From: an uncultured Flavobacteriales bacterium
Lineage (GTDB): Bacteria; Bacteroidota; Bacteroidia; Flavobacteriales_D; Parvicellaceae
Direction of reading: 5' to 3'
DNA: 32,199 nucleotides
Assembly: GCA_913030835.1 (NCBI GenBank)
Contig: CAJWDP010000035.1
Span: 1 to 32,199 of the forward strand
Shown: positions 3,041 through 25,920 of the stretch, one piece after another
How the letters are laid out: the number at the start of each line of letters is the position of its first letter
Position numbering within the stretch: the first letter of the stretch is position 1
Program-made: the position numbers and the translations under genes
Notes under the pieces: model-generated
What the model was told of the DNA's origin: nothing
What the model saw: the letters and a program-made list of their open reading frames with translations, nothing else
Databases searched by the model: none

Positions 3041-6000
3041 CTAGAAAAGTACTACCTCTGTAACTGAGCCTGTCTCCATATCCTTGATGTGATAAACACC
3101 TTTACTTAAATCACTCATGTCAATTTCTTTAGAACCATTGACAGCGCAATCGCGAACTAGCTGTCCCATTGAAGAGTAAATTCTCAAATTCACATTTTTA
3201 TCACTATAAATGATAAACTGACCATTTGATGGGTTCGGTACAATTTTGAAAACACCCGGACTACCAAAATCATCTTCAATCACAGTCGTTACCGATCCAA
3301 GAGCCAGTTCAGAATCATAACTGCACCCATTGAAATCAACAACTGCCACAGTATAAACACCGCTACAAAGTGAATCCGCCACTTGACCTGCAATTCCATT
3401 GATGTAGTACGTGTACGGCGGCGTTCCTCCCATTGCATCAACGCGTATTAGCCCATCGCAATCACCCGGACTTGGATTGACCAAATCGTTTGAAACTACC
3501 AATTCGGAAGGGTTTCGAAGCTCAACCTGAAATTGCTCGTTTGCACACCCTTTTCCGCCTCCTATTTCCACTTGATATGTGCCTACACTCAAATGATCAA
3601 ATATTCCAATAGAATCATTGAACACTTCCGTTATTGCGGTTGCTGAAGTAAGGGTGGCAGAAAAGGGAGGTTCTCCACCAAAACCAACGTGAATTGATCC
3701 GTTGTGACTGCCTGAACACGTCACATCCGTCACAGTCACTTCGGAAATCGGATAATAATGGAGCTTGAATCTCACACCAGATGCCATAAGTGGGTTGGAA
3801 TTGAAGCTGTATTCTAATGAATCTGCTATTGGCGTAAATGAATTTGATTCAAGATCTTCCAGCACCAAACAGCCATCAAAATTGAGTACTCCAGGGTTGG
3901 TAAACAGCAATTTGTGTGTACCAAAAACAGAGGAGCTGTAATGCAGATCGATGCTGACCCCATTAAATGTCGAAATCCGGTTCAAGGACAAAGGCGTTGA
4001 ACCTCCTTCCATCCATAAGCTCGGGGCATTTGTTACCGAGGTAAACATTTTGTACCCATCTTTACCAGGGTCATACCCGGCAGTTGCGCCATTATCCAAC
4101 CCTAAAATGACCTCATCATAAAATGAATTTGAGGAATTACTTAACCTAACTTTAAAAAATGGAGACTCCTCTTGGCTTTTCACAAAACCAGTGGCTACAT
4201 CTTGTTTAGCGGCCTCTGTTATGGTTACGGAAGCCCCGGTTGCATTTGCGTGCACCCAAACCCCCTGATTCGCTGCAATTTCTCTGCCTACACTGTTTGT
4301 TCCTCCCCCTGATCCTGTTCCTCCGGTGTAAATACCGTAATTGCCCGCCTCAGCACTATAAATCCAGATCTGATCGTCAACATTCACTTTTGATAGTTGG
4401 TCCCAGGAAATCGGGCAAGGATATGGATTGCCAACAAAATTCCATCCCTTCTGATCTTCAGCCGCCGCAATTTCGGCAGGAAGGGAGTTTTCATAGCTTA
4501 GGTTGTGCGTATAGTCTCCATATCCCGGAGTACCCGTTAGCACTACATTGTACGGGCCTGTACCTGTATATATTCTTGTGGCAGAGGAAGGAAGCATCGG
4601 ATTCGTAATGTTGGTTGCTGCAACCCATCCATTGTTCTTATTGCCATTAGCATTCGATTCGTCATACGTATATACTGAGGTAAAACTAGGGAAAGTAGTG
4701 GCCGCCCCGGCAAACCCGCTCATGGGGATTCCATCGTTATTAAAATCTTCCAATGTCATGCTCTGCACACTGCTCGTAAACTCTCTCCACCCATTTATTG
4801 AAGTTGACAAATATTGTTCAACAATGACGTCTCCATCAAAGGGTGTAATAAAAGGATTCGAATTGGTATAAATACCAGACGCACTGTTGCCCGTATTTGC
4901 TCCATACGGACCTCCCGAGTAGTCCAACACCCCGTCAACAGTAATTGTATAGGTGATTTCCGTATCCCACGACCCTGAGGTGAAATTGAAAGAAACGTCT
5001 GATCCACAACTCAATGTAAAGCTGTCATCATAAGAAGAGCCGCTTGGAACAGCATAACTATTCGAAAAAGCACCATCGATATATACGTCCAAAGATGCTC
5101 CGTTCCAACCATCACCATATGAATCTGCAAGAGAAAGCTCGAATGTTTTGGCAGTAGTACATTGATTTGGTGTAGCCATAATTCGACCAGTTGCAATAGC
5201 GTCACTGGCTATCACCAAATTATCCTTTGTCACTATGGTTCCACCATCGGGGTATAGGGCGCCATAGATGTTGTAGGTTCCTGTTTGAAACTCAATACCA
5301 GCCGGGTTAGAAACACGAATTGAATAAAAGTTCTGAAATCCACCATTCAGTATATTTTGAGATGTACCTGTAAAATTAACAAGGCCATTGTCCGTGTCAA
5401 TCGTTCCGTTGTTCGTCCAATTCCCAAATACGTTTAGTTGTTGTTCATGCGAAATGGTTAGTTTCGCTCCCGACTCAATGGTTATGTTTCGAACCATACC
5501 CGCATCATTGCTAATTTCAGGTTGGTTGGGTGATGATGACGGGAAGGTAACATCTGATGCAGAATCGGGTAAGGTGCCGGTGCTCCAATTATCCGTGTTA
5601 TGCCAGTCGGAAGTTAATCCAACCCAGGCAAGGTCCTGATCGATAACTACGTCGTCAATTGACATATCGCCATTAAAACTAGATCCTTTCACATAGTAAA
5701 ATCTAAAATAAACCTCGGGCATCGAGGCTGTTGGAGTCATATTCACATTGACCACTGTAGCAGGATCTGAGCCTGATGTATGCTGCTGTCCAGAAACCGA
5801 CCACAGGTCTAACCATGAAATTCCATCCGGACTAAACTGAAAGCTCATTGTCCCCATATCCGACCCGTATGCGTGATACGCAAAACTGGCTTTTGGAAGT
5901 AGCACCGAAGAAAAATCAAAGCATCCGGACGTCATGGTAAAGATGGTTGGTCCTCCTGCACTAGCTTCACAAAACGCATAATTCGAACTCGAGGAGTTGG

Positions 6001-6805
6001 ATGTAGGGTCTGAACCAAAAACGGTTGCATCTGTGGGCCCCGTTGCAGTGGATGGTGTACTACCAGATGTAACACTCCAGTTTGTTGACCAAAGGGAACC
6101 ATTTTCAAAGTTCATAGTGAATGGCAACCCGACACAGGTTAAATTTGTGGCGACTACTCTCAAATTGGCATTGTAGTCCTTTACGTAAGATGCAGCCGGT
6201 AAAAAATTCGGATCGGGATTCGTAAAATCCGAGTAGTAAACCAACGTTGATTTACTCGTTTCATGACAATAAAAGTCATCGGTAGAGCTTCCGTAGTTCG
6301 GAGAATTTTCGTCAATCGCAATGATGATATTACTTACACCATCCCACACAAAAGGGATGTCTGCTGCTATTCTTACATCAGAAACGCCAAATGGAGATGA
6401 ACCCGGATTAATAGCGGGGAATGCATTGATTGCAAATGGTTGCAAAGATCCGTGATCCTCCCAGTCGTTCACATCTGCAAAACTGTTTTTCGCAGTGTAG
6501 CCAATGAAAACATCCCAGAGGTCAGAATTGGTTAATGTTGTATTGGTATACTCATAAATTAAAGCTGTAATTTCTGATCCCGCCTGTAATCCAGCACCTT
6601 GAAGCTCAGATGATGTTATGATGCTTTGAGAATAAGAATAGGAATAGAAGGGCTCTATGGGTACATTGGTATTGTACCAAACATCTGAACCACCTATTTG
6701 AACGGTAGTTTGGGCTTTAACTTCAAAAACAAAAGGGATAAAAGTAATACATAGCACATTTGCTGCGCAGATGGCTCTGCGGAGCGTGCAAATAGTAGTT
6801 TTCAT
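3041..6805 (-). CDS. Large secreted adhesin-like protein with MAM-like domain, SprB-like repeats and T9SS type A tail
   Basis: This is a complete protein of 1254 residues. An N-terminal signal peptide ends near residue 31 (VKAQ). A SDDFYCHE block lies near 174-181. A MAM-like domain spans about 228-390 (FAYHAYG, MGTMSFQF, LWSVSGQQH). A beta-rich region covers about 395-545 and a DSYGDGWNG module about 555-635. The GWNFVGNPYPCPISW block at 787-801 is common in Bacteroidota secreted proteins. Two SprB-like repeats follow (about 1024-1095 and 1100-1168; GGEPPFSAT and GGTPPYTYY). Residues about 1185-1254 form a T9SS type A sorting domain (VPNPSNG at 1189-1195, GVYHI, final VVLF), so the protein should cross the outer membrane by T9SS and be anchored or released. 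No catalytic motif was seen; adhesion is inference. It is the tandem paralogue of the gene at 1-2896. Confidence 0.92.
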   Translation of the reverse strand: MKTTICTLRRAICAANVLCITFIPFVFEVKAQTTVQIGGSDVWYNTNVPIEPFYSYSYSQSIITSSELQGAGLQAGSEITALIYEYTNTTLTNSDLWDVFIGYTAKNSFADVNDWEDHGSLQPFAINAFPAINPGSSPFGVSDVRIAADIPFVWDGVSNIIIAIDENSPNYGSSTDDFYCHETSKSTLVYYSDFTNPDPNFLPAASYVKDYNANLRVVATNLTCVGLPFTMNFENGSLWSTNWSVTSGSTPSTATGPTDATVFGSDPTSNSSSSNYAFCEASAGGPTIFTMTSGCFDFSSVLLPKASFAYHAYGSDMGTMSFQFSPDGISWLDLWSVSGQQHTSGSDPATVVNVNMTPTASMPEVYFRFYYVKGSSFNGDMSIDDVVIDQDLAWVGLTSDWHNTDNWSTGTLPDSASDVTFPSSSPNQPEISNDAGMVRNITIESGAKLTISHEQQLNVFGNWTNNGTIDTDNGLVNFTGTSQNILNGGFQNFYSIRVSNPAGIEFQTGTYNIYGALYPDGGTIVTKDNLVIASDAIATGRIMATPNQCTTAKTFELSLADSYGDGWNGASLDVYIDGAFSNSYAVPSGSSYDDSFTLSCGSDVSFNFTSGSWDTEITYTITVDGVLDYSGGPYGANTGNSASGIYTNSNPFITPFDGDVIVEQYLSTSINGWREFTSSVQSMTLEDFNNDGIPMSGFAGAATTFPSFTSVYTYDESNANGNKNNGWVAATNITNPMLPSSATRIYTGTGPYNVVLTGTPGYGDYTHNLSYENSLPAEIAAAEDQKGWNFVGNPYPCPISWDQLSKVNVDDQIWIYSAEAGNYGIYTGGTGSGGGTNSVGREIAANQGVWVHANATGASVTITEAAKQDVATGFVKSQEESPFFKVRLSNSSNSFYDEVILGLDNGATAGYDPGKDGYKMFTSVTNAPSLWMEGGSTPLSLNRISTFNGVSIDLHYSSSVFGTHKLLFTNPGVLNFDGCLVLEDLESNSFTPIADSLEYSFNSNPLMASGVRFKLHYYPISEVTVTDVTCSGSHNGSIHVGFGGEPPFSATLTSATAITEVFNDSIGIFDHLSVGTYQVEIGGGKGCANEQFQVELRNPSELVVSNDLVNPSPGDCDGLIRVDAMGGTPPYTYYINGIAGQVADSLCSGVYTVAVVDFNGCSYDSELALGSVTTVIEDDFGSPGVFKIVPNPSNGQFIIYSDKNVNLRIYSSMGQLVRDCAVNGSKEIDMSDLSKGVYHIKDMETGSVTEVVLF

Positions 6806-14321: not shown

Positions 14322-14347
14322 GATTAATAAAAAGCATTGAATTAATC
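14322..14347 (-). terminator. Inverted repeat at the end of the CUB/P-domain gene
   Basis: GATTAAT (14322-14328) and ATTAATC (14341-14347) form a 7-bp inverted repeat with a 12-base loop that includes the stop codon of the upstream-transcribed gene. It is AT-rich and has no following T-tract on the minus strand, so it is at best a weak terminator or an mRNA end-stabilising hairpin. Confidence 0.25.
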
Positions 14348-16765
14348 ATTGAACAAAGTGACATGTCCAGTTTCTGATTCCCCATTCGCATAGACCACTA
14401 CGTAATAGTAGGTCCCCGCCGGAAGCAATTGACCGTTATTGCCGTTTCTTCCATCCCAATCGTTTTGGTAATCATCTGCATGATAGACCGTCTGACCCCA
14501 ACGATTGTAGATGGTCAAGGCTGTATTCGGCCATCTGAACAATCCATCCATAACGAAATAATCATTCTGGCCATTACTACCTTCTCCTATCGTAATCACA
14601 TTCGGAACAATAACAATACACGGATCGGTTGTGATAACAGAAGATGCAGAAACGTCATTACAATATCCATCAAGATCTACAGTATAGGTACCCGCGGTAG
14701 AGACTTCAATTGAGGATGTGTTCTCGCCTGAGGACCACTGGTAGGTTACGGTTGGGTCTGTACCTTCTGTCACATCCAACAGCTGTGTTTCACCTTCACA
14801 AAAGAAATAATCCTGTAAACTTGCTGCTATATCCGGCATAAACAAAATCTCGAGATCTGTACTCAATCCACATTGGACATCCGTAAAGGTATAGGTGTAC
14901 AGTCCCGGTGCATCAACATCAAATCTTGGATTGATAAAGGTGGTATTTGGAAAAAAGGTTGACGTTCCTGGGCCACTATAGGACCATTCTCCACCTTCAG
15001 GAGCATAAGTACCCGTTACTTGGAACGTATAATCACATGCAGTATCGCCGGGGACAAGCTCCGGGCCATTTAAAGTGTAAACGGAAATTGTCGTGTCGTA
15101 CGTACAACCAAAATTATCTGTTATTTGAAACGTGTACCAATTGTCACCGGGATCATCAGGTTGAACAACAATTGCTGTATCCAGTCCCCCGCCGATGATC
15201 GTTGAATCAGGAAGCCATTGCTCTGATTGAATTAGAGGTGTATAAAATTCACTGAAAGGACTTAGGGAAGGATCAAAAAACAATCCCCATTCAAAAAGAT
15301 ATCCATTATCCGCACCGATATTGTCGGTAATGGTAATTACCCAATCACCATCGATCGGACAACCTATAAATCCAGCCCAATTGTCCAAAGGAGTGTAGGT
15401 TCCTGGGGTCAAAATATTGTATCCTGGAGTAACCGTAGAAGGAATCCAATTTCCTGCAGCATTCTCTGCCGACATCGTTCCCAATACAGCTGACATTGAC
15501 CAACAATAGTCTAATCCGATTCCGGGTGTTAATGTGCCATCGTCTAAGGCGTCTCCTAAGAATGTTGTTCCTCCACCACCGGTATAGGTGTCCATTAGAG
15601 TAAGTGTAACACCACTGGGACAAGTAAGTGTGATGTCTAAATCACCTAAGTACGAATGCTCAATATTGATGCAAATCTGTGCCAGGTCAGAAGCACTGGA
15701 CATGGTTGCACCACCAAATCCCGATATGGAAAGTGAATCGGTATGGGCCAAGCCGGAACCATCCGGTAAAAACGTAAGGCCAGCAAAGGACCCTCCCAAC
15801 TGGAAACTACCCACTGTTCCGTCTACACCTGCTGTATCCGTAGACGTAACACCGCCAATTAGATTTGCAGTAGCCCCCAAACAAATAGTATCCGGAACGG
15901 CCTCACAAGTAACAAAACTTGGTATAGTTGAAACTCTTGTTTTAGATATGATCAATTCAGCTAGAAGGATTGGATCCGTTATTTTCATAGATACCAGAAA
16001 TCCTGATCTTGCAGGTGGCGTAAACCAAACGGAATCACCAGTTGCACTCGATCCATCAGAAAAATCCCACTCTACCGTATATGTGTTAATTTGATCATAA
16101 CCGGTACCAGTTACACTAACATCATGAGGGAACACGGGAGTAGCCACGAAAAGAACAGAATCTCCCAAACAAACATCAACATATCCCGTATCAGCAGGCT
16201 GCATATCATTTCCACCTGATATATCACCGTTGATGTAGGCTACCATGTGCGGTTCAAACGGTTGTGGCAAGTTGCCACAGGTAACCGTTCCTTCCCATCC
16301 AGAAGCATTGACCGAAGCATTTGACACAAACTGGAATGTAAGGCAACCGGTTGGATTCGACCAGGATGCATTAGCAACAAAACCGGTCGGATGCGTTGCA
16401 CTATTGAATGCTCCAATTAAAGGGGATGCAGTTGATGGTCCATCGTACACATATAACGTATCTGACGCATCAACATCCCAACTTAATCCACCCCCCATGG
16501 CAAAAGAGCTGGTAACTTTACTTCCTAAAGCCAGATCCGGACAAATCGTTATTGTTTCATTTTCATTATCCGAGTAATTGGCAGAATTACCACCTGAATC
16601 AAAAAAGTTCGCAGGAGCCATTGGATCCGGACTATAGACATTACAGTCCATAGGAGATGACGCATCCATATCCGCATCTGTTATCAAAATTGGTGGACTT
16701 TGAGCCAGAGCTCCCAATGGTAAGCAAAGAGTCCAACAAAACAGTATATATCTAAACCAACTCAT
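14342..16765 (-). CDS. Secreted CUB-like/P-domain protein with T9SS type B (gliding-motility-type) tail
   Basis: The 807-residue protein has a signal peptide ending near residue 22 (ALAQ). A CUB-like domain covers about 60-163 (DTLYVYDGP, SGWEGTVTCG) and a PKD-like domain about 200-275. A proprotein convertase P domain (P/Homo B) covers about 355-500: ICINIEHSYLGDLDITLTCP, GDWVITITDNIGADNGYLFEWGL. Ig-like beta modules follow, and the C-terminal type B sorting domain spans 717-807 (IVPNVIT, LTIYNRWGQTVY, LLPAGTYYYVV). No protease domain accompanies the P domain. It is probably delivered by T9SS to the cell surface; the binding target is unknown. Its ATG overlaps the stop of the upstream small gene by four bases (ATGA), which points to translational coupling. 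Confidence 0.9.
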   Translation of the reverse strand: MSWFRYILFCWTLCLPLGALAQSPPILITDADMDASSPMDCNVYSPDPMAPANFFDSGGNSANYSDNENETITICPDLALGSKVTSSFAMGGGLSWDVDASDTLYVYDGPSTASPLIGAFNSATHPTGFVANASWSNPTGCLTFQFVSNASVNASGWEGTVTCGNLPQPFEPHMVAYINGDISGGNDMQPADTGYVDVCLGDSVLFVATPVFPHDVSVTGTGYDQINTYTVEWDFSDGSSATGDSVWFTPPARSGFLVSMKITDPILLAELIISKTRVSTIPSFVTCEAVPDTICLGATANLIGGVTSTDTAGVDGTVGSFQLGGSFAGLTFLPDGSGLAHTDSLSISGFGGATMSSASDLAQICINIEHSYLGDLDITLTCPSGVTLTLMDTYTGGGGTTFLGDALDDGTLTPGIGLDYCWSMSAVLGTMSAENAAGNWIPSTVTPGYNILTPGTYTPLDNWAGFIGCPIDGDWVITITDNIGADNGYLFEWGLFFDPSLSPFSEFYTPLIQSEQWLPDSTIIGGGLDTAIVVQPDDPGDNWYTFQITDNFGCTYDTTISVYTLNGPELVPGDTACDYTFQVTGTYAPEGGEWSYSGPGTSTFFPNTTFINPRFDVDAPGLYTYTFTDVQCGLSTDLEILFMPDIAASLQDYFFCEGETQLLDVTEGTDPTVTYQWSSGENTSSIEVSTAGTYTVDLDGYCNDVSASSVITTDPCIVIVPNVITIGEGSNGQNDYFVMDGLFRWPNTALTIYNRWGQTVYHADDYQNDWDGRNGNNGQLLPAGTYYYVVVYANGESETGHVTLFND

Positions 16766-17136
16766 TTACTCTTACTATTACCTTTTATGTGCTCAACACT
16801 TCGAACAACAAGTAACTTGTCGTGACCCTTAATTTTGTAATACAGATATCTGTTTTCAACCGGAGTGACGCCAAGTTCGAAAAAATTAATTTTGGAAAGA
16901 TCATCTACTATGATTTCTCCGATTACTTCAGCCGGATTTGATTTCCCTTTGAAGTTGGCCAGATAAAATCCATGGTCTAAACATGCATTTATATACTTGA
17001 ATTCCTCTATTTGATTCGTCTGCATTTCAATAAGTTCAGACTCTGAGAATTTCACAAATAATCGATCATCAAATTCCTGCGCCTTCAAAACCAAAGCGGC
17101 CAGAATGAAAATAGATAAAGGGATAATCTTTTTCAT
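16762..17136 (-). CDS. Small secreted protein of unknown function
   Basis: From the preferred ATG at 17136 the protein has 124 residues; the longer frame begins at 17196, but the extra 20 residues are not needed. The chosen start gives a good signal peptide (MKKIIPLSIFILAALVLKAQ). The mature part is about 100 residues with RLFVKFSESEL and a basic C-terminus (GNSKSK). No family or motif was recognised. The gene overlaps by four bases the CUB/P-domain gene and is probably made with it in a fixed ratio, so an interaction or accessory role in its export is a reasonable guess only. Confidence 0.72.
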   Translation of the reverse strand: MKKIIPLSIFILAALVLKAQEFDDRLFVKFSESELIEMQTNQIEEFKYINACLDHGFYLANFKGKSNPAEVIGEIIVDDLSKINFFELGVTPVENRYLYYKIKGHDKLLVVRSVEHIKGNSKSK

Positions 17137-17307
17137 TTTACTAAGTGGTGTATGTTGTAATAATCCAAAAACAATAATACTTAAATTCATCGACAAGTTC
17201 CAATCGGAAGTTCAACAACAATCAAATTATACAATTTTAGAAAAGTTGTTAACATCCAATTCCTCTAGACAAACGGAAAAACTATTTTTGAGTTAAAATA
17301 AGAGAAA
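17137..17307. promoter_or_regulatory. Divergent spacer with a promoter candidate for the transketolase operon
   Basis: This 171-base AT-rich gap separates the minus-strand small secreted gene from the plus-strand transketolase N-half gene. TATTTTTG (17283-17290) matches the Bacteroidota -7 consensus TAnnTTTG and ends 17 bases before the ATG at 17308. I could not find a TTTG -33 box at 19-21 bases upstream, so only half of the promoter is supported. No matching element was seen for the leftward gene. Confidence 0.4.
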
Positions 17308-18153
17308 ATGATCGATTACAAGCAGTTGAATGACCTGTGTTCTCAGACAAGAAGAGATATTGTCAGAATGGTTGCAGAAGTAAATTCCGGGCATCCAGGT
17401 GGATCCCTAGGTTGTGTAGAATACTTCATAGCCCTCTATCATGAAATTATGAATCACAATTCGGACTTTTCCATGGACGGAAAAGGAGAGGATGTATTTT
17501 TTCTTTCAAACGGACACATTTCACCCGTCTTTTATAGCACGCTGGCAAGAGCGGGATATTTCCCCGTGAATGAACTAAATACCTTTCGGAAAATTGATTC
17601 CCGACTCCAAGGACACCCTACCACCCACGAAGGCCTGCCTGGAGTCAGAGTGGCAAGCGGATCACTTGGCCAAGGGTTGTCCGTTGCAATTGGTGCTGCT
17701 CAATCAAAAAAGCTGAATGGAGACAGTTCATTTGTTTACTCATTGCATGGCGATGGAGAACTACAGGAAGGTCAAATTTGGGAGGCGGCTATGTATGCTG
17801 CCGGGAATGGAGTTGACAACTTAATTTCTACCGTTGACTACAATGGCAAGCAAATTGATGGGTCTTTGGATGATGTATTGCCAATGGGAGACCTGAAAAA
17901 GAAATGGGAAGCATTTGGATGGGAAACTCTTGAGATCGAAGATGGAAACAATATGAAACAAGTTATAGAAGGCTTGCAAAAAGCAAAAACATTAACCGGA
18001 AATAAAAAGCCTGTTATGATCTTAATGAGAACAGAGATGGGGAATGGAGTGGATTACATGATGGGCACGCACAAATGGCATGGATCAGCCCCAAATCAGG
18101 AACAATTGAATATTGCATTAAACCAGTTGGAAGAAACTTTAGGTGACTATTAG
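17308..18153 (+). CDS. Transketolase, N-terminal subunit
   Basis: The 281-residue protein is the thiamine-diphosphate-binding half of a split transketolase, which moves two-carbon units between sugar phosphates in the non-oxidative pentose phosphate pathway. NSGHPGGS (26-33) carries the conserved His. The cofactor and Mg motif runs from GDG (148-150) to Asn179 (HGDGELQEGQIWEAA to VDYNGKQ). The C-terminal half is encoded separately at 19571-20539; the sum of 603 residues is close to a full transketolase. The two genes are separated by a VWA gene, which is unusual because split halves are normally adjacent. Confidence 0.93.
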   Translation: MIDYKQLNDLCSQTRRDIVRMVAEVNSGHPGGSLGCVEYFIALYHEIMNHNSDFSMDGKGEDVFFLSNGHISPVFYSTLARAGYFPVNELNTFRKIDSRLQGHPTTHEGLPGVRVASGSLGQGLSVAIGAAQSKKLNGDSSFVYSLHGDGELQEGQIWEAAMYAAGNGVDNLISTVDYNGKQIDGSLDDVLPMGDLKKKWEAFGWETLEIEDGNNMKQVIEGLQKAKTLTGNKKPVMILMRTEMGNGVDYMMGTHKWHGSAPNQEQLNIALNQLEETLGDY

Positions 18154-18160
18154 CATTATA

Positions 18161-18179
18161 CATGTAAACGATTTACATG
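18161..18179 (+). promoter_or_regulatory. Perfect inverted repeat spanning the VWA gene start codon
   Basis: CATGTAAA (18161-18168), spacer CGA, and TTTACATG (18172-18179) form a perfect 8+8 bp inverted repeat. The ATG of the VWA gene (18177-18179) is the end of the right arm. As RNA the start codon would be paired in a tight hairpin; as DNA the dyad is operator-like. The left arm also contains ATGTAA (18162-18167), a start codon directly followed by a stop. Confidence 0.6.
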
Positions 18180-19574
18180 AATAGAATTATTGTAACCATA
18201 TTAATAGTAGTAATTACCAGTGTTTGTATCGCACAGCAATCAAATACAGATTCCAACATTGAAACGACTAGAGTTTTATTCATTTTTGATGGATCAAACA
18301 GCATGAATGCTCAATGGCAGAGCAGTAGTAAAATTAAGATCGCAAAGCAACTTTTAAAACAAACTTTAGATAGCTTAAAAGGGTTTGAAAATATTGAGTT
18401 GGCCCTTCGCATGTATGGGCATCAATACAAAATATATCCTGGACAACAAAACTGTGAGGACACCAAACTAGAAGTCCCTTTTGCACCGGGAGACGACAAT
18501 ATTGACAGAATTAAAACACGATTGAGAAGTCTTACCCCCCAAGGCACAACACCTATAGCTCGAAGCCTAGAATACGCCGCAAATGACTTTCCCGAATGTT
18601 CAAATTGCAGAAATGTTATTGTTTTAATTACTGATGGAATTGAAGCTTGCGATGAAGATCCTTGCGCTGTTGCAAGAGCCCTAAGGTCAAAAGGAATTAT
18701 CCTTAAGCCATTTGTTATTGGAATTGGCATTGATCCAAGCAAATTATTGTCCTTGAAGTGCATTGGAAAGTACTATGACGCAACGAGTGAAGCAACGTTT
18801 AAAAGTGCGCTTAGGGTTGTTGTCAGCGAAGCGCTGAATAATACCACGGTTCAGGTCAATCTGAAAAAAGAATCAGGAAAACCAACAGAAACGGACGTTC
18901 CAATGGTTTTTTACAACCGCAAAAACGGGGCTCCTATGTATAACTTTATGCATACACTGGACAAATGGCAAAACCCCGATACGCTCAGTATAGATCCGTT
19001 AAGCATATACGATCTGGAAGTGTTCACAATTCCCCATTTAAGAAAAGACAGCATCCGGTTTAAACCCGGTGTGCACAACATTGTCGAATTGGATGCAGGA
19101 CAGGGTGAACTGACTGTGAACGTAAATAGCTCGGGCGGAAGATTTCCGGGGATGAAAGTGCTGATTAAAGATCCGGCAACCAGCGAAATCATTCATGTTC
19201 AAAACATGAACAGCTCAACTAAATTGCTAATTGGTGAATACGACTTAGAAATTTTGACATTACCAAGGATCAAATTTGAAAAGGTTAAAATCAAACAGAG
19301 CAAAAGAACAACCATTGAAATTCAGCAACCAGGAAACCTCAACATCGTGTACCCAGCCACCGGAAACGGGTGCATCTACAAGATGGAAGGAGACCAACAA
19401 CAATGGGTGTGCCCATTGCAAGCGAACGAGCTGGTAGAAATGTTCGTGATGCAACCTGGAAAATACAAGCTGGTGTTCCGATCCGATCGATCAAGGAGGG
19501 CAGCCTACACAGTAGAAAAAGATTTTAGAATATCCTCAGGACTAATTACAGATTTAAATTTATTACATCCATGA
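18177..19574 (+). CDS. Secreted von Willebrand factor A domain protein
   Basis: The 465-residue protein has a signal peptide (cleavage near IAQ, residue 20). A VWA domain spans about 31-200 with a complete metal-ion-dependent adhesion site: Asp38, Ser40, Ser42 (DGSNSM), Thr124 or Thr125 (GTTPIA) and Asp153 (LITDGIE). Four Cys residues at 93, 141, 144 and 158 together with Cys163 suggest disulphides. Residues from about 210 to 465 look like repeated small beta-sandwich modules (GELTVNV, GNLNIVY). It should act in the periplasm or at the cell surface, binding a protein partner through the metal site; the partner is unknown. It lies between the two transketolase genes, 23 bases after the first and overlapping the second by four bases (ATGA, 19571-19574). 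Confidence 0.88.
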   Translation: MNRIIVTILIVVITSVCIAQQSNTDSNIETTRVLFIFDGSNSMNAQWQSSSKIKIAKQLLKQTLDSLKGFENIELALRMYGHQYKIYPGQQNCEDTKLEVPFAPGDDNIDRIKTRLRSLTPQGTTPIARSLEYAANDFPECSNCRNVIVLITDGIEACDEDPCAVARALRSKGIILKPFVIGIGIDPSKLLSLKCIGKYYDATSEATFKSALRVVVSEALNNTTVQVNLKKESGKPTETDVPMVFYNRKNGAPMYNFMHTLDKWQNPDTLSIDPLSIYDLEVFTIPHLRKDSIRFKPGVHNIVELDAGQGELTVNVNSSGGRFPGMKVLIKDPATSEIIHVQNMNSSTKLLIGEYDLEILTLPRIKFEKVKIKQSKRTTIEIQQPGNLNIVYPATGNGCIYKMEGDQQQWVCPLQANELVEMFVMQPGKYKLVFRSDRSRRAAYTVEKDFRISSGLITDLNLLHP

Positions 19575-20539
19575 AAGAGTTTAACATACTTGGGAATCAA
19601 GATACCAGATCTGGTTTTGGAGACGGTCTATTACAGCTAGGACACGCGAATGAAAATGTTGTAGCCCTATGCGCAGACTTAACCGGATCACTTAAAATGA
19701 ATGCATTTGAAAACACCTTCCCCGATCGCTTTTTTCAGGTAGGAATTGCAGAAGCAAATATGATGGGAATAGCCGCCGGTATGACCATAGGAGGAAAAAT
19801 ACCCTTCACGGGAACTTTTGCCAATTTTTCAACTGGTAGAGTATATGATCAAATTAGACAATCGATCGCTTATTCCCATAAAAACGTGAAGATTTGTGCA
19901 TCACATGCCGGGCTTACATTAGGTGAAGACGGAGCCACTCATCAAATCTTGGAGGATATCGGGATGATGAAAATGCTACCCGGAATGACGGTAATAAATC
20001 CGTGCGATTACAATCAGACCAAAGCAGCTACAATAGCCATAGCCGAACATGAAGGGCCGGTATATCTGCGCTTCGGAAGGCCTAAGGTGCCTATTTTTAT
20101 TGAAGAGAATGAACCCTTTGTGATTGGGAAAGCTGTCATGTTGAATGAAGGAACAGATGTATCTATCTTCGCAACAGGCCATCTGGTTTGGAAAGCGATC
20201 GAAGCAGGTCGTGTTCTCGCGGAACAGGGAATTTCCGCCGAAATTATAAATATCCATACCATTAAACCATTGGATGAAGAAGCAGTCTTACAATCGGTAA
20301 ACAAAACAAAATGTGCTGTGACGGCTGAGGAACATCAGCTGGCCGGAGGACTTGGTGATTCGATTGCTCAGTTGCTTTCCAGAACTCAACCTGCTCCAAT
20401 AGAATATGTAGCAGTAAACGATACTTTTGGAGAAAGTGGAACTCCGGACCAGCTTATGGTCAAATATGGCCTGGATTCTTCAGACATAATCAATGCAGCT
20501 AAAAGAGCAATTGCAAGAACATCAAAACAAATGGCTTAG
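19571..20539 (+). CDS. Transketolase, C-terminal subunit
   Basis: The 322-residue protein holds the pyrimidine-binding and C-terminal domains of the split transketolase. Glu61 in QVGIAEANM is the conserved Glu that activates thiamine diphosphate. SHAGLTLGEDGATHQ (111-125) is the second conserved active-site stretch, and the C-terminal domain includes AVTAEEHQLAGGLGD. Its ATG overlaps the stop of the VWA gene, so its translation probably depends on ribosomes that have finished the VWA protein. It should form a complex with the product of 17308-18153. It resembles the C-terminal subunits of transketolase rather than a pyruvate dehydrogenase beta chain because the partner gene carries transketolase motifs. 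Confidence 0.93.
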   Translation: MKEFNILGNQDTRSGFGDGLLQLGHANENVVALCADLTGSLKMNAFENTFPDRFFQVGIAEANMMGIAAGMTIGGKIPFTGTFANFSTGRVYDQIRQSIAYSHKNVKICASHAGLTLGEDGATHQILEDIGMMKMLPGMTVINPCDYNQTKAATIAIAEHEGPVYLRFGRPKVPIFIEENEPFVIGKAVMLNEGTDVSIFATGHLVWKAIEAGRVLAEQGISAEIINIHTIKPLDEEAVLQSVNKTKCAVTAEEHQLAGGLGDSIAQLLSRTQPAPIEYVAVNDTFGESGTPDQLMVKYGLDSSDIINAAKRAIARTSKQMA

Positions 20540-20573
20540 GTGACTTAACTAGTAGTCTGGCCATCCGAAATTC

Positions 20574-21104
20574 ATGACTGACGAAGAACTGGTTAAATTA
20601 TTTAAGGATGGTGACAATCCAAATTATGCCTTTAATCTGATCGTTAGAAAACACCAGGAACGTCTTTATTGGATGATCAACCGAATCGTTCAGAACCATG
20701 ACGATTCGGACGATGTAATTCAAAACGTTTTCATCAAAGCATGGAAAGCCCTACCAAAATTTAGAGAGGATGCTAATCTTTACAGCTGGCTCTATAGAAT
20801 CGCAACAAATGAAGCACTAACCTTTATCAAAAAAAGAAAAAGGCGGGGCTATACTGTTGAGGTAGATAGTCAATTTAAAGGAACGTTAAACACGAATGAT
20901 CCAACGGAAAATGAAATTTTGGAAAAATTAGAAACAGCGATTGCCCGTCTTCCGGAGAAACAACGTTTAGTATTTCACCTTAAATACTACGAAGAAAAAA
21001 AGTACGCTGAAATTTCAGAAATTTTGGATACTTCAGTAGGAAGTCTCAAGGCATCTTATCACCATGCAGTTAAAAAAATCGAACAATTTCTTACCGATAA
21101 TTAA
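20574..21104 (+). CDS. ECF-type RNA polymerase sigma factor
   Basis: The 176-residue protein has sigma region 2 at about 22-90 (DDVIQNVFIKAWKAL, LYSWLYRIATNEA) and region 4 at about 117-170 (LPEKQRLVFHLKYYEEKKYAEISEIL, VGSLKASYHHAVKKI), with no region 3, as in ECF sigma factors. It redirects RNA polymerase in response to an envelope signal. The next two genes encode a probable membrane anti-sigma factor and a CpxP-like periplasmic protein, a trio known in Bacteroidota. It starts 34 bases after the transketolase C-half, so it may share that transcript or have its own promoter inside that gene; I did not see one. Confidence 0.93.
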   Translation: MTDEELVKLFKDGDNPNYAFNLIVRKHQERLYWMINRIVQNHDDSDDVIQNVFIKAWKALPKFREDANLYSWLYRIATNEALTFIKKRKRRGYTVEVDSQFKGTLNTNDPTENEILEKLETAIARLPEKQRLVFHLKYYEEKKYAEISEILDTSVGSLKASYHHAVKKIEQFLTDN

Positions 21105-21134
21105 ACCAATTCAACAATTGAAAGTCTTAAGAAC

Positions 21135-21707
21135 GTGGATATAAATGAGGAACATAACGATGGCGCAGAGCTTGAGAAAATGGCTCCAACCCTATTTGGG
21201 CTAAAAAAAGATCGATTGGGAAACGTTCCTGATGGCTACTTTGATGAATTGCCTCAAAGGATTCAGGAGGCCATTTCATCAAAGGAAAATACAAAGTGGC
21301 AATGGTCGAATATGTTCAAAACAAAACGGTATATCAGCTATGTACTAACTACGATTGCTCTTATTTTCGGTATTTACTGGGTGGTAGACAATCAAAACCA
21401 ATTCAACAGAAATAATAATGATCTGGTTCATCACGAGTTTATTGAACTTGAAAACATGACGGTTTCTGACATCATTGACGAACTTTCTGGTTTTACTATA
21501 GAGAGTGAAGAAATAAGTTTGCTTGATACCACGGTAACTAACAACTTTCTAGCAACATTGGATCACGATTACTATTTCGACGATTTTTACAATTCTTTTG
21601 ACGAAGAACCTTCACCTAATTACGAGGATGAACTCTACTTGGAAGAACTGGAGAGTTACTTCGGCAGCTTTGAATTGGAATTCAACGAAGAAATCAAACT
21701 AAACTGA
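21135..21707 (+). CDS. Probable membrane-bound anti-sigma factor
   Basis: The 190-residue frame starts with GTG at 21135 (MDINEEHNDG); an ATG at 21180 is the other possible start. The cytoplasmic part contains GNVPDGYFDELPQRI (29-43), a pattern seen in proteins encoded next to ECF sigma genes in Bacteroidota. One transmembrane segment lies at about 66-84 (YISYVLTTIALIFGIYWVV). The remaining 105 residues are strikingly acidic (DDFYNSFDEEPS, EDELYLEELESYF). The expected topology is sigma-binding N-terminus in the cytoplasm and acidic C-terminus in the periplasm. Function is inferred from position and topology, not from a confirmed domain. It ends five bases before the CpxP-like gene. Confidence 0.75.
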   Translation: MDINEEHNDGAELEKMAPTLFGLKKDRLGNVPDGYFDELPQRIQEAISSKENTKWQWSNMFKTKRYISYVLTTIALIFGIYWVVDNQNQFNRNNNDLVHHEFIELENMTVSDIIDELSGFTIESEEISLLDTTVTNNFLATLDHDYYFDDFYNSFDEEPSPNYEDELYLEELESYFGSFELEFNEEIKLN

Positions 21708-21712
21708 ACATT

Positions 21713-22168
21713 ATGAAAACATTTATTTGGTTAATCGCATTTAGTTTTTCCTTATTACCTATGCAACTACTTGCGCAGGGTCAGGGAGGGAAAAAAGAGC
21801 AAATAGAAGCAAAACGTATCGCTTTTTATACAGAAAAACTCGACCTAAGTCGATCGGAAGCTGAGGTTTTTTGGCCTGTGTACCGGGAGATGAACAAGCA
21901 GCTGCTGGAATTAAGAAAAGAGATGAAAGCAAAACGAAAAGGCAATGTTTCAGAAATTAGCGACAATGAATTGGAAAAACTTTTGGATGACATGATAGAC
22001 TTCAAGCAAAAGGAGCTTGATGTGAAAAAAAGGTACCACGAAGAATTCAAGGATATTTTACCGATTCGTAAGGTTGCTAAGCTCTATCATGCTGAAGAAC
22101 AATTCAAAAAAAGAATGGAATCCAGTAAAAGTAAACCACCCGGGGCTCAACAGCGTCCACGTAGATAA
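21713..22168 (+). CDS. CpxP/Spy-like periplasmic protein, probable sensor for the ECF sigma factor
   Basis: The 151-residue protein has a signal peptide ending near residue 22 (LLAQ). The mature protein is nearly all charged helix, with YTEKLDLSRSEAEVFWPVYREMNKQL resembling the LTxxQ-type motif of Spy/CpxP proteins, and a basic Pro-rich end (QQRPRR). In other bacteria such proteins sense metal or misfolding stress and bind the anti-sigma factor. Here it follows a sigma factor and its probable anti-sigma factor with a 5-base gap, so it most likely tunes that pathway. Its strong basic charge would suit binding to the acidic periplasmic tail of the preceding protein, which is my inference. Confidence 0.82.
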   Translation: MKTFIWLIAFSFSLLPMQLLAQGQGGKKEQIEAKRIAFYTEKLDLSRSEAEVFWPVYREMNKQLLELRKEMKAKRKGNVSEISDNELEKLLDDMIDFKQKELDVKKRYHEEFKDILPIRKVAKLYHAEEQFKKRMESSKSKPPGAQQRPRR

Positions 22169-22207: not shown

Positions 22208-23389
22208 ATGTCCGATTTGAAGCAATTTAAAGAGCTGTTAGCTCAAACTTCTCCCACGCCTTTAGGGCTTTCAATAAGAAGTGCAAAAGGTAGCTGTGTT
22301 TATGATAAACATGGGAAGGAATACCTAGATTTTACTTCCGGCATAGCCGTAAGTGCATTAGGCCATGGCCATCCAAAAATTAATGACGCCTTGAAGAAGC
22401 AGATCGACAAACATCTGCATGTAATGGTTTATGGTGAATTCATACAAGAAGCACAACTAGATCTAGCTAAAAAACTGACCGCCATACTCCCCAAAAATCT
22501 TTCACAGGTTTATTTTGTGAATTCGGGAACTGAGGCAAATGAAGGTGCTTTAAAGCTTGCCAAACGCTTCAATCAGAGAACCGAGATCGTTTCTTTTGAA
22601 AAAAGCTATCATGGTAGCACCCATGGTTCCCTTTCCGTGAGTGGAAACGAAAATAAGAAATACGCTTTTCGACCCTTGCTACCTGATGTAAAGTTCATCC
22701 CTTTTAACTGCGAAAGTTCCCTGAATTCAATAACGACCAGAACCTCTTGCGTAATAATGGAGACAATCCAGGGCGATGCAGGAATTCGAATTCCCACTCG
22801 ATCGTTCATGCAAGCATTGAGAAGCAGGTGTACTGAAACCGGGGCATTACTGATCTTAGACGAAATTCAATGTGGAATGGGAAGAACGGGAACCATGTTT
22901 GCTTTCGAGCATTTTGAAATTGTTCCCGACATCCTTACACTTGGAAAAGCATTTGGTGGTGGCATGCCAATAGGAGCTTTTGTAGCCTCCGAAAAAATCA
23001 TGCAGTCACTAAGCAGTAATCCTCCGTTGGGCCACATTACGACATTTGGAGGTCATCCACTCCCTTGCGCAGCTGCAGCTGCAGCATTGTCTATACTAGA
23101 AGAAGAAAAAATAATAGATCGGGTGGAGGAACTTGGGAACCTACTCGAATCAATACTTCAGCATGAAAACGTAATAGAAATCAGAAGAATTGGGCTTATG
23201 CTAGCAATTGATCTGGAGTCCCCCCAACAGGTTCAAAAAGTCGTAGAGAAAACGATGGAAAACGGTGTTCTTTGTTTTTGGTTCTTGTCATGTCCAGCAA
23301 GTTTTCGAGTTGCACCGCCCTTGAATATTAGTAAGGAGGATCTCGAGAAAGGAGCACATGTTATAAGACGTGCTTTTGACACCCTTTAA
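22208..23389 (+). CDS. Class III PLP-dependent aminotransferase, acetylornithine/ornithine aminotransferase-like
   Basis: The 393-residue protein has the full class III layout: DFTSGIAVSALGHGHP (41-56), SGTEAN (106-111), ILDEIQCGMGRTG with Asp218 for the pyridine nitrogen, and the PLP lysine Lys247 in LTLGKAFGGGMP. Acetylornithine, ornithine or a related omega-amino acid is the likely amino donor; the sequence alone does not settle which. No arginine biosynthesis genes adjoin it. It lies 39 bases after the CpxP-like gene and converges on the CoA-binding gene, their ends overlapping by four bases. A GAAAC/GTTTC short repeat (22169-22183) in the gap is too weak to call a terminator. Confidence 0.88.
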   Translation: MSDLKQFKELLAQTSPTPLGLSIRSAKGSCVYDKHGKEYLDFTSGIAVSALGHGHPKINDALKKQIDKHLHVMVYGEFIQEAQLDLAKKLTAILPKNLSQVYFVNSGTEANEGALKLAKRFNQRTEIVSFEKSYHGSTHGSLSVSGNENKKYAFRPLLPDVKFIPFNCESSLNSITTRTSCVIMETIQGDAGIRIPTRSFMQALRSRCTETGALLILDEIQCGMGRTGTMFAFEHFEIVPDILTLGKAFGGGMPIGAFVASEKIMQSLSSNPPLGHITTFGGHPLPCAAAAAALSILEEEKIIDRVEELGNLLESILQHENVIEIRRIGLMLAIDLESPQQVQKVVEKTMENGVLCFWFLSCPASFRVAPPLNISKEDLEKGAHVIRRAFDTL

Positions 23390-24834: not shown

Positions 24835-25920
24835 TCAAGCCAATTGGTTCAATAGTTTCGTAAATGCCAAATTATAAATGGGGATTTGCACAGACCAATC
24901 ATAATGGAACACCGATGTTTCCAACTCGTTTTTCTCATCCCATAGTAGAATTAAATTCCTCAATTTTTGCTTAAGCTGATCATAATCCGCATACAAGTGA
25001 TCTCGTTTGACGTGCTCAGGATAAGATAAACGGTTGGGCAACAATGGATGCGCTCCAAAGTGAATTGCTTCTACCACACTCCCCCCAAAAAATTCTTGAA
25101 TCGCTGTACTGATCACAATGTCGCATGTGCTGAGCAACTGCTGATATTCTTCCTTAGATTCAACAAAACCCCACTGTACTATTCTATCTCTGAATTTATC
25201 CCTCGCTTGATCAAATACAGCAGGATATTCTCCAAATGATTCTCCCAGCACCATTACTTTCCAGTCAAGATCGTTTATCGATTCCAAGGCATTAAAAAAT
25301 TCCTCAGGATTCTTGTCATACTCCCATCTATGGTTCCAGAGAATCACAGGTTCTTCATTTAATTTTCCTATCGGGTTGCTATTTTTAAGATCTAGCCCCA
25401 AATACAGAACTTCAGATTTCTTCTCTATGGACTCAATGGATCTGCTGAAATTTCCATCCGGAAACTGACTTAAAAAATTAGGCAATAAACCAAGAAAACT
25501 ATTCATATGGTACCGGCTATTAAAAAAACACCAGTCTGAGATCAATGCGCTTGTAAAATTAACCCACCCATAATGGTTGTCTCTTACCAAACGCAGATCA
25601 TCATCCCGCTTACTCCAGGGATAGCTGATCTGGTTTTCATGAAAATAGATTGCAATCGGAACGTTTTGATCAAAATACAATGACTTGAAAGTTGCCACGT
25701 CGAGATAATCTGATACCAACAAAAGATCATATCTTTTACCCAAATCATTCAATTTTTCGGATAACTGAACGGCTGCACCATGCATTCTCCATTTCCAGTG
25801 TCTCCCTGGCAATGAACAAATATCAATTTCATGAGAACTGTATTGACAGAGCTCCTCACACCACCTTTTATGAGCACCCGTAAAATATGGCTCGATCAAA
25901 AGAATGTTCACTTTTTTCAA
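24835..25920 (-). CDS. tRNA-queuosine alpha-mannosyltransferase-like glycosyltransferase (DUF3524/GTDC1 type)
   Basis: The 361-residue protein has the signature N-terminus of the QTMAN/GTDC1 family (LLIEPYFTGAHKRW, SLPGRHWKWRMHGAA at 37-50) and a GT4-type C-terminal half (WNHRWEYDKNPEEFF, STAIQEFFGGSVVEAI, LPNRLSYPEH). In animals the family member adds mannose to queuosine in the anticodon of tRNA-Asp; bacterial members are annotated as the same. Cytosolic: no signal peptide. The substrate in this organism is inferred from family only. The start codon overlaps the stop of the DUF5777 gene by four bases (25917-25920), so it is translated as part of the cytochrome operon. Confidence 0.88.
   Translation of the reverse strand: MKKVNILLIEPYFTGAHKRWCEELCQYSSHEIDICSLPGRHWKWRMHGAAVQLSEKLNDLGKRYDLLLVSDYLDVATFKSLYFDQNVPIAIYFHENQISYPWSKRDDDLRLVRDNHYGWVNFTSALISDWCFFNSRYHMNSFLGLLPNFLSQFPDGNFSRSIESIEKKSEVLYLGLDLKNSNPIGKLNEEPVILWNHRWEYDKNPEEFFNALESINDLDWKVMVLGESFGEYPAVFDQARDKFRDRIVQWGFVESKEEYQQLLSTCDIVISTAIQEFFGGSVVEAIHFGAHPLLPNRLSYPEHVKRDHLYADYDQLKQKLRNLILLWDEKNELETSVFHYDWSVQIPIYNLAFTKLLNQLA

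Follow-up and report, generated by a model that had tools for sequence, protein, structure and literature searches.

The window analyzed here, a stretch of 32,199 nucleotides (nt) from an uncultured Flavobacteriales bacterium (contig CAJWDP010000035.1), carries, inside the gene pair for a two-part transketolase, the gene for an exported protein with a VWA domain, called V below. The features are as follows.

17308..18153, + strand: transketolase N-half (TK-N), the thiamine-diphosphate-binding subunit, 281 amino acids (aa); Pfam Transketolase_N, E 2.5e-47
18177..19574, + strand: exported VWA protein V, 465 aa; Pfam VWA, E 3.8e-11, also VWA_2
19571..20539, + strand: transketolase C-half (TK-C), with the pyrimidine-binding and C-terminal domains, 322 aa; Pfam Transket_pyr, 3.1e-43, and Transketolase_C, 7.4e-29
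19571..19574, + strand: overlap of the V stop and the TK-C start, ATGA, 4 bases, from the coordinates of the open reading frames (ORFs)

The original prediction described this layout, with a gap of 23 bases between TK-N and V and of −4 between V and TK-C, and both the ORFs and the Pfam matches confirm it. By domain content, the pair is a split transketolase, with Transketolase_N on one gene and Transket_pyr plus Transketolase_C on another; the window's own genome has one TK-N match at E ≤ 1e-20. The position of V had been presented as an anomaly, on the premise that such halves are normally adjacent. The premise is inverted in this group: having V between the halves is the usual condition among the sampled genomes of the class (Bacteroidia). 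The arrangement is inherited, older and wider than one genome, and not peculiar to the window. A literature search within narrow limits returned no published description of it.

Gene order across the order, the class and the phylum

One set of 150 genomes of the order was searched for TK-C, V and TK-N, and the places of the matches were then joined. The counts omit presumed paralogues (TK-C weaker than ~1e-65, TK-N weaker than 1e-40, V weaker than ~1e-20), for example V matches of 1.3e-7 in G145 and 7e-5 in G066 and the weak TK-C of G030, G050, G077, G083, G095 and G147; the V pieces of G022 are merged. The order TK-N, V, TK-C (N-V-C) occurs in 117/150 genomes and in 10 of the 13 families, including three genomes (G034, G037, G048) with V split over two contigs, where the order is deduced from both ends. 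TK-N and TK-C are adjacent without V in 18/150. The others have N-V with C not found or on another contig (4/150), V-C with N not found (3/150), a lone TK half with V absent (3/150), or no match above the cut-offs (5/150). The accepted V match adjoins a TK half in all 124 genomes that have one, and TK-N matches at E ≤ 1e-40 are present in 141/150. In G065, 1.7 kb separate V and C; in G055 and G059, C is on a separate contig. The relatives in a separate scan are Flavobacteriales, Crocinitomicaceae, Cryomorphaceae, Bacteroidales and others.

In the class sample (139 genomes), a TK-N is scored as split when the match is strong and the frame is up to 412 aa long, and V is scored as following it when the gap is below 3000 nt (506, 1296 and 1369 nt in G202, G212 and G233). 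The counts exclude paralogues with weaker similarity to TK-N, the second TK-N piece found in G266 and short fragments of V, and G219 (partial V, 1.4e-44) is scored as having V elsewhere. V is held by 100/139 genomes (20 of the 39 V-less ones are among those listed). It follows TK-N in 86 of these 100, at ≤300 nt in 83, and lies away from TK-N in 14, two of which (G188, G224) keep TK-C directly behind V. A split-type TK-N is present in 125/139 genomes, with V after it in 86, elsewhere in 11 and not found in 28. The 14 non-split genomes comprise seven with a one-piece frame (including G267), five with weak matches only, and G167 and G215 with no match; V is present in 3 of these 14 versus 97 of the 125 with split TK-N (p 5e-5, uncorrected for kinship). 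A family set of 40 loci (one per family for 39 families, and one extra), chosen for V after TK-N, has TK-C next after V in 33 of the 38 loci with enough contig, three of these with an intervening small ORF. At E ≤ 1e-30, V is found in 195/296 class genomes. In a sample of the phylum, 7/198 genomes have V matches (among the 27 of the 198 genomes listed, the unmatched ones belong to families of the class itself); one of the seven, G515 (partial, 4.5e-40), is outside the class.

There are also V copies outside the operon. Tandem pairs of V genes occur in one family (L222 in G206, also G239 and G268), on contigs other than that of TK-N. Second V copies are present at L230, L231, L233 and L234 (genomes G224, G282, G248 and G177), with neighbors that share no common theme. 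A 712-aa frame (G219:C1:1355561-1357630) contains two V-family stretches, as if by an insert or an extra domain.

Shared by 117/150 genomes, the gene order is far beyond chance. The original prediction took conservation over several genera as a sign of a functional unit, and such conservation spans numerous genera and families and is present at each level (117/150 in the order, 86/139 in the class, 33/38 in the family set). It also named two observations that together would point to a chance insertion. One of them, adjacent halves without V, does occur (the 18/150 above); for the other, a separate promoter of the C-half, the scan is at chance level. Apart from those 18 genomes, nothing favors a chance insertion or an assembly error in the window's genome alone, and it is refuted by N-V-C in most of the order, by V after TK-N in the class and by TK-C next in the family set; we give it practically no credence.

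The junctions are tight. In the 86 of 123 distinct N-V-C loci that pass the end filters (three with large distances of 568, 580 and 1690), the median distance from the V stop to the C start is 5 nt, with ≤20 nt in 65/86. The two genes overlap by any length in 21/86 and by exactly 4 nt in 7/86. On these spacings, co-transcription of the three genes is plausible, as is a dependence of C-half supply on translation of V. Upstream of TK-N, the following site could be a promoter.

17283..17290, + strand: TATTTTTG, 17 bases before the N-half start, a match to TANNTTTG, the Bacteroidota −7 promoter element

Over the window as a whole, matches to TANNTTTG are no more frequent than chance predicts (30 versus 31.5 expected), and TATTTTTG is for that reason at most suggestive. 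On the + strand, this chance-level scan has no TANNTTTG match between 17291 and 20421, the next being at 20422, and a scan for terminator-like sites, also at chance level, has none in 16700-21800. A sigma-70-like + strand site (17992-18020), past the N-half start and ahead of V, comes from a scan of the same chance-level kind.

The tight junctions bear on a functional coupling in the sense of the original prediction, by which translation or export of V would set the amount of the C-half and tie carbon flow to the state of the envelope. The short distances and the 21 overlaps agree with it, as do conservation across the class, the preference of V for genomes with split TK-N, and a sigma factor trio of envelope type in the same run (below). 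Yet 18/150 order genomes and 28/125 class genomes with a split TK-N have no V, two lineages keep V although their TK halves are gone, TK-C does not come after V in 5/38 family-set loci, and V seldom overlaps TK-C by exactly 4 bases. We consider such coupling unlikely.

History of V and of the transketolase halves

On a TK-N tree of 158 sequences, the state with V after TK-N needs 15 changes; with L214 scored as V-less, the same tree needs 16, six of them forced by well-supported branches. Pairwise distances over 118 loci correlate between N and C (r 0.56), N and V (0.60) and V and C (0.63), so that, judged by their sequences, the three genes diverge together. In V-less loci (22 loci, 21 genomes), the halves are −18 to 89 bases apart, and there is therefore scant room for V remnants. 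The way V is scattered over the tree, together with the concerted divergence of N, V and C, favors losses of a V already present in the ancestor over a chance insertion. The simplest reading would be one early N-V-C state, then repeated clean losses of V; because the trees are unrooted (including the V tree of 153 rows), the direction of change is given by parsimony only.

In the window, TK-C is followed on the same strand by four further genes, at gaps of 34, 30, 5 and 39 bases.

20574..21104, + strand: extracytoplasmic-function (ECF) sigma factor; Pfam Sigma70_r2 and r4_2; TIGR02937, 99.5 bits versus a cut-off of 42.9
21135..21707, + strand: probable anti-sigma factor (function suggested by its place after the sigma gene); hydrophobic segment at residue 66
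21713..22168, + strand: small CpxP/Spy-like protein with a signal-peptide-like start, probable envelope sensor (function suggested by homologues)
22208..23389, + strand: class-III aminotransferase, ArgD-like, last gene of the same-strand run; Pfam Aminotran_3

The probable anti-sigma protein has a single hydrophobic segment by hydropathy and no match in the Pfam or NCBIfam scans. The CpxP-like protein matches LTXXQ / Metal_resist at 0.087, and its best homologues at 4e-4 and 1.5e-4, all below the curated cut-offs; for the aminotransferase, the argD subfamily score is below its cut-off.

V is separable from the transketolase. V-less relatives keep both halves, four of them (L106, L251, L255, L261) in the order TK-N, TK-C, sigma. 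Conversely, two lineages without intact TK halves keep V directly before the trio of sigma, membrane protein and CpxP-like gene, one branch of the V tree with L195, L206, L209, L210 and L213 and a second with L219 and L220. One-piece transketolase frames of 686-701 aa are present in four of these seven genomes (G205, G238, G592, G593); of the remaining three, two have frames of 525 and 485 aa and one has no match. At L195:5236-5496, the 3′ part of TK-N survives as a relic ahead of V, with a 698-aa transketolase frame elsewhere in that genome.

These losses and displacements also suit a frozen operon, in which V was caught early between the halves, has no functional tie to the transketolase or to the sigma trio, and persists in place since tight operons seldom break. 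V can be lost (the 18/150 order genomes), can move (elsewhere in 14/100 V-bearing class genomes, with TK-C still behind it in G188 and G224) and is sometimes left without TK; the ten proteins beside V copies at eight loci share no theme. Two points stand against it: the invariant metal-site and cysteine residues (next section) mean selection on V itself, and retention after TK-N in 86/100 V-bearing genomes is strong for mere inertia. We regard this explanation as possible, though doubtful.

The V protein and its neighbors

V has three parts, all encoded on the + strand.

Residues ~1-19, + strand: signal peptide, by hydropathy
Residues ~28-222, + strand: VWA domain, Pfam VWA, metal site intact
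C-terminal part, ~240 aa, + strand: predicted beta-sandwiches

The match to Pfam VWA (PF00092 / PF13519) scores 44 bits versus a curated cut-off of 23.8, and a VWA match at E ≤ 0.1 is present in all 31 members of an alignment of V proteins with 35-76% identity to that of the window. Invariant in 31/31 are D38, S40, S42, T125 and D153, presumably the metal-ion-dependent adhesion site (MIDAS) of V, and four cysteines (C93, C158, C163, C195). Since these residues are invariant at such identities, V itself is under selection. The sole hydrophobic segment above the cut starts at residue 1, and Q20, at the likely cleavage site, is conserved in at least 90% of the 31 members. Both elements of the original claim about the protein between the halves, its export and its intact metal site, are supported, the first by the single N-terminal segment and the second by the five site residues. 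V is predicted to be exported and soluble, and it looks like a periplasmic VWA protein.

Two other routes were considered and rejected. V does not fit a lipoprotein, as the 31-row alignment has, by inspection, no conserved Cys after the signal region, nor type IX cargo, as no member has a Por_Secre_tail or CHU_C match at E ≤ 0.1.

The structure model of V has a mean pLDDT of 84.4 and a pTM of 0.60, and a fold search with it returns the VWA fold, with Z ~21 to many VWA domains. Residues 222-465 (244 residues) modeled alone have a mean pLDDT of 92.3; their best 50 fold matches are beta-sandwiches of pilin, surface and fibronectin type, at TM-scores ≤0.31, so that the model would indicate the general fold class only. 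For this C-terminal part, we observed no consistent Pfam family among the 31 members and no convincing match among the sequences of solved structures, and V passes no NCBIfam cut-off. As far as the Pfam and NCBIfam libraries go, V would represent an uncharacterized family.

For the neighbors of V, the named loci are the best 80 of 521 confirmed matches, and for that reason lean toward the window's relatives; each flank count uses the loci whose flank is long enough. TK-N stands before V in 72/74 (with the L195 relic counted as TK-N) and TK-C follows in 67/73. YchF is upstream in 29/55, the aminotransferase downstream in 15/61. A CpxP-like gene accompanies sigma in all 44 named loci that have sigma. 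On the TK-N tree, with 41/158 rows unscored, sigma follows in 65/96 scored loci with V versus 4/21 without V (p 5.6e-5, uncorrected for kinship); in the family set, it is downstream in 19/38 loci with enough contig. The most durable link of V is thus with TK and the next with the sigma module, before which V survives when TK leaves.

A common partner was sought for V copies away from TK and rejected: the ten flanking proteins at eight loci, scanned with Pfam, show no theme. They are a methionyl-tRNA synthetase, peptidases M3 and M28, a methyltransferase, FTCD_C, Nramp, a type IX fn3 protein, a histidine kinase, YbeY and one protein without a match.

Elsewhere in the window, a small ORF (16762-17196), a type IX secretion tail protein and YchF lie upstream of TK-N on the opposite strand. 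Large minus-strand proteins carry a type IX secretion tail with a SprB repeat (3041-6805) or with a P-domain (14342-16765), and the minus-strand protein at 24835-25920 has QTMAN_N, the N-terminal domain of tRNA-queuosine mannosyltransferase. No tRNA genes or Rfam families were found in the window.

Explanations and known systems

The explanation that we prefer, in its full form about an even chance, is that the class inherited the operon from its ancestor, with V allied to the envelope. Its first part, the ancestral operon, is well supported when taken alone; the envelope role of V is a moderate guess. The operon would contain TK-N, V and TK-C, often followed by the ECF sigma factor, the probable anti-sigma factor, the CpxP-like protein and the aminotransferase, and would be read as one transcript starting upstream of TK-N. 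TK-C would be translated behind V by reinitiation or immediate restart. V, presumably soluble and periplasmic, may use its metal-dependent VWA domain to bind a ligand, and it probably serves envelope maintenance as an ally of the sigma, anti-sigma and sensor trio rather than of the transketolase. The presence in the same run of this trio, which the original prediction left unmentioned, adds indirect weight to the envelope link. V would keep its place chiefly because, at junctions this tight, any rearrangement other than its clean deletion, which is tolerated, would be costly.

Several observations weigh against this explanation. Sigma follows V in 44/67 named loci, so that the TK link is better kept, which fits poorly with a V-sigma partnership; sigma is missing in 31/96 scored V loci and in 19/38 family-set loci, and a kinship-corrected test of V versus sigma had five supported pairs, too few. 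Ten solitary V copies adjoin other genes, and the flanks scanned share no theme. V may be decaying in four genomes: internal stops interrupt its match in G003 as well as in G023, and in G022 and G154 the match is fragmented. The envelope role is suggested by the domain type alone, and the promoter and terminator scans behind a single transcript are at chance level. A stronger and class-wide version, in which translation of V sets TK-C supply on the same transcript as an envelope-stress sigma factor and wires pentose-phosphate flux to the envelope, is more improbable still than the coupling considered above.

An exported gene nested in the operon of a housekeeping enzyme over dozens of families is a long-lived puzzle of gene order. 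Relatives without V, without the enzyme halves and with both offer natural experiments at hand, and an uncharacterized VWA family now has a known genomic setting, with a link to an envelope-type sigma module that can be tested.

Among known systems, BatA and BatB of Bacteroidota have a membrane segment after the VWA domain and a MoxR-type ATPase gene nearby. Like them, V has a VWA domain, and its Asp-x-Ser-x-Ser motif and later Asp align with those of 4jdu, an aerotolerance-related protein of Bacteroides fragilis, with the Thr offset by one place. In the search with the V model, 4jdu is at row 14 (Z 20.9, 169 residues, root-mean-square deviation (rmsd) 1.9), where many VWA domains tie. Unlike them, V begins with a signal sequence, and no Pfam family covers its C-terminal ~240 aa. 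The Bat membrane topology is rejected for V, which has no later membrane segment; against NF047506 (BatB), V scores 18.9 bits versus 350. None of the 18 proteins of the window scanned with Pfam is of MoxR type; the flanks of the relatives were outside that search.

Mfa5, at the pilus tip of Porphyromonas gingivalis, and SpaC, a pilus adhesin of Gram-positive bacteria, share with V an exported VWA domain, which in SpaC is also joined with beta-sandwich domains. The identities to V are, however, just 9-20%, and SpaC reaches a TM-score of 0.36 on the query with a poor rmsd. In this comparison, V lacks a type IX tail in its 31 members, other pilus or sorting signals being outside the search.

Envelope-stress modules combine an ECF sigma factor, an anti-sigma factor and a CpxP-Spy-like protein. 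The window has a sigma factor, a one-segment membrane protein and a small exported protein in that order at 20574-22168; unlike such modules, its trio stands in a run with a transketolase, and the CpxP-like match is below the Pfam cut-offs. Finally, as in two-gene split transketolases, the halves in the window carry the full Pfam domain set on the same strand, whereas the window and most of the relatives sampled hold between them the gene of an exported protein.

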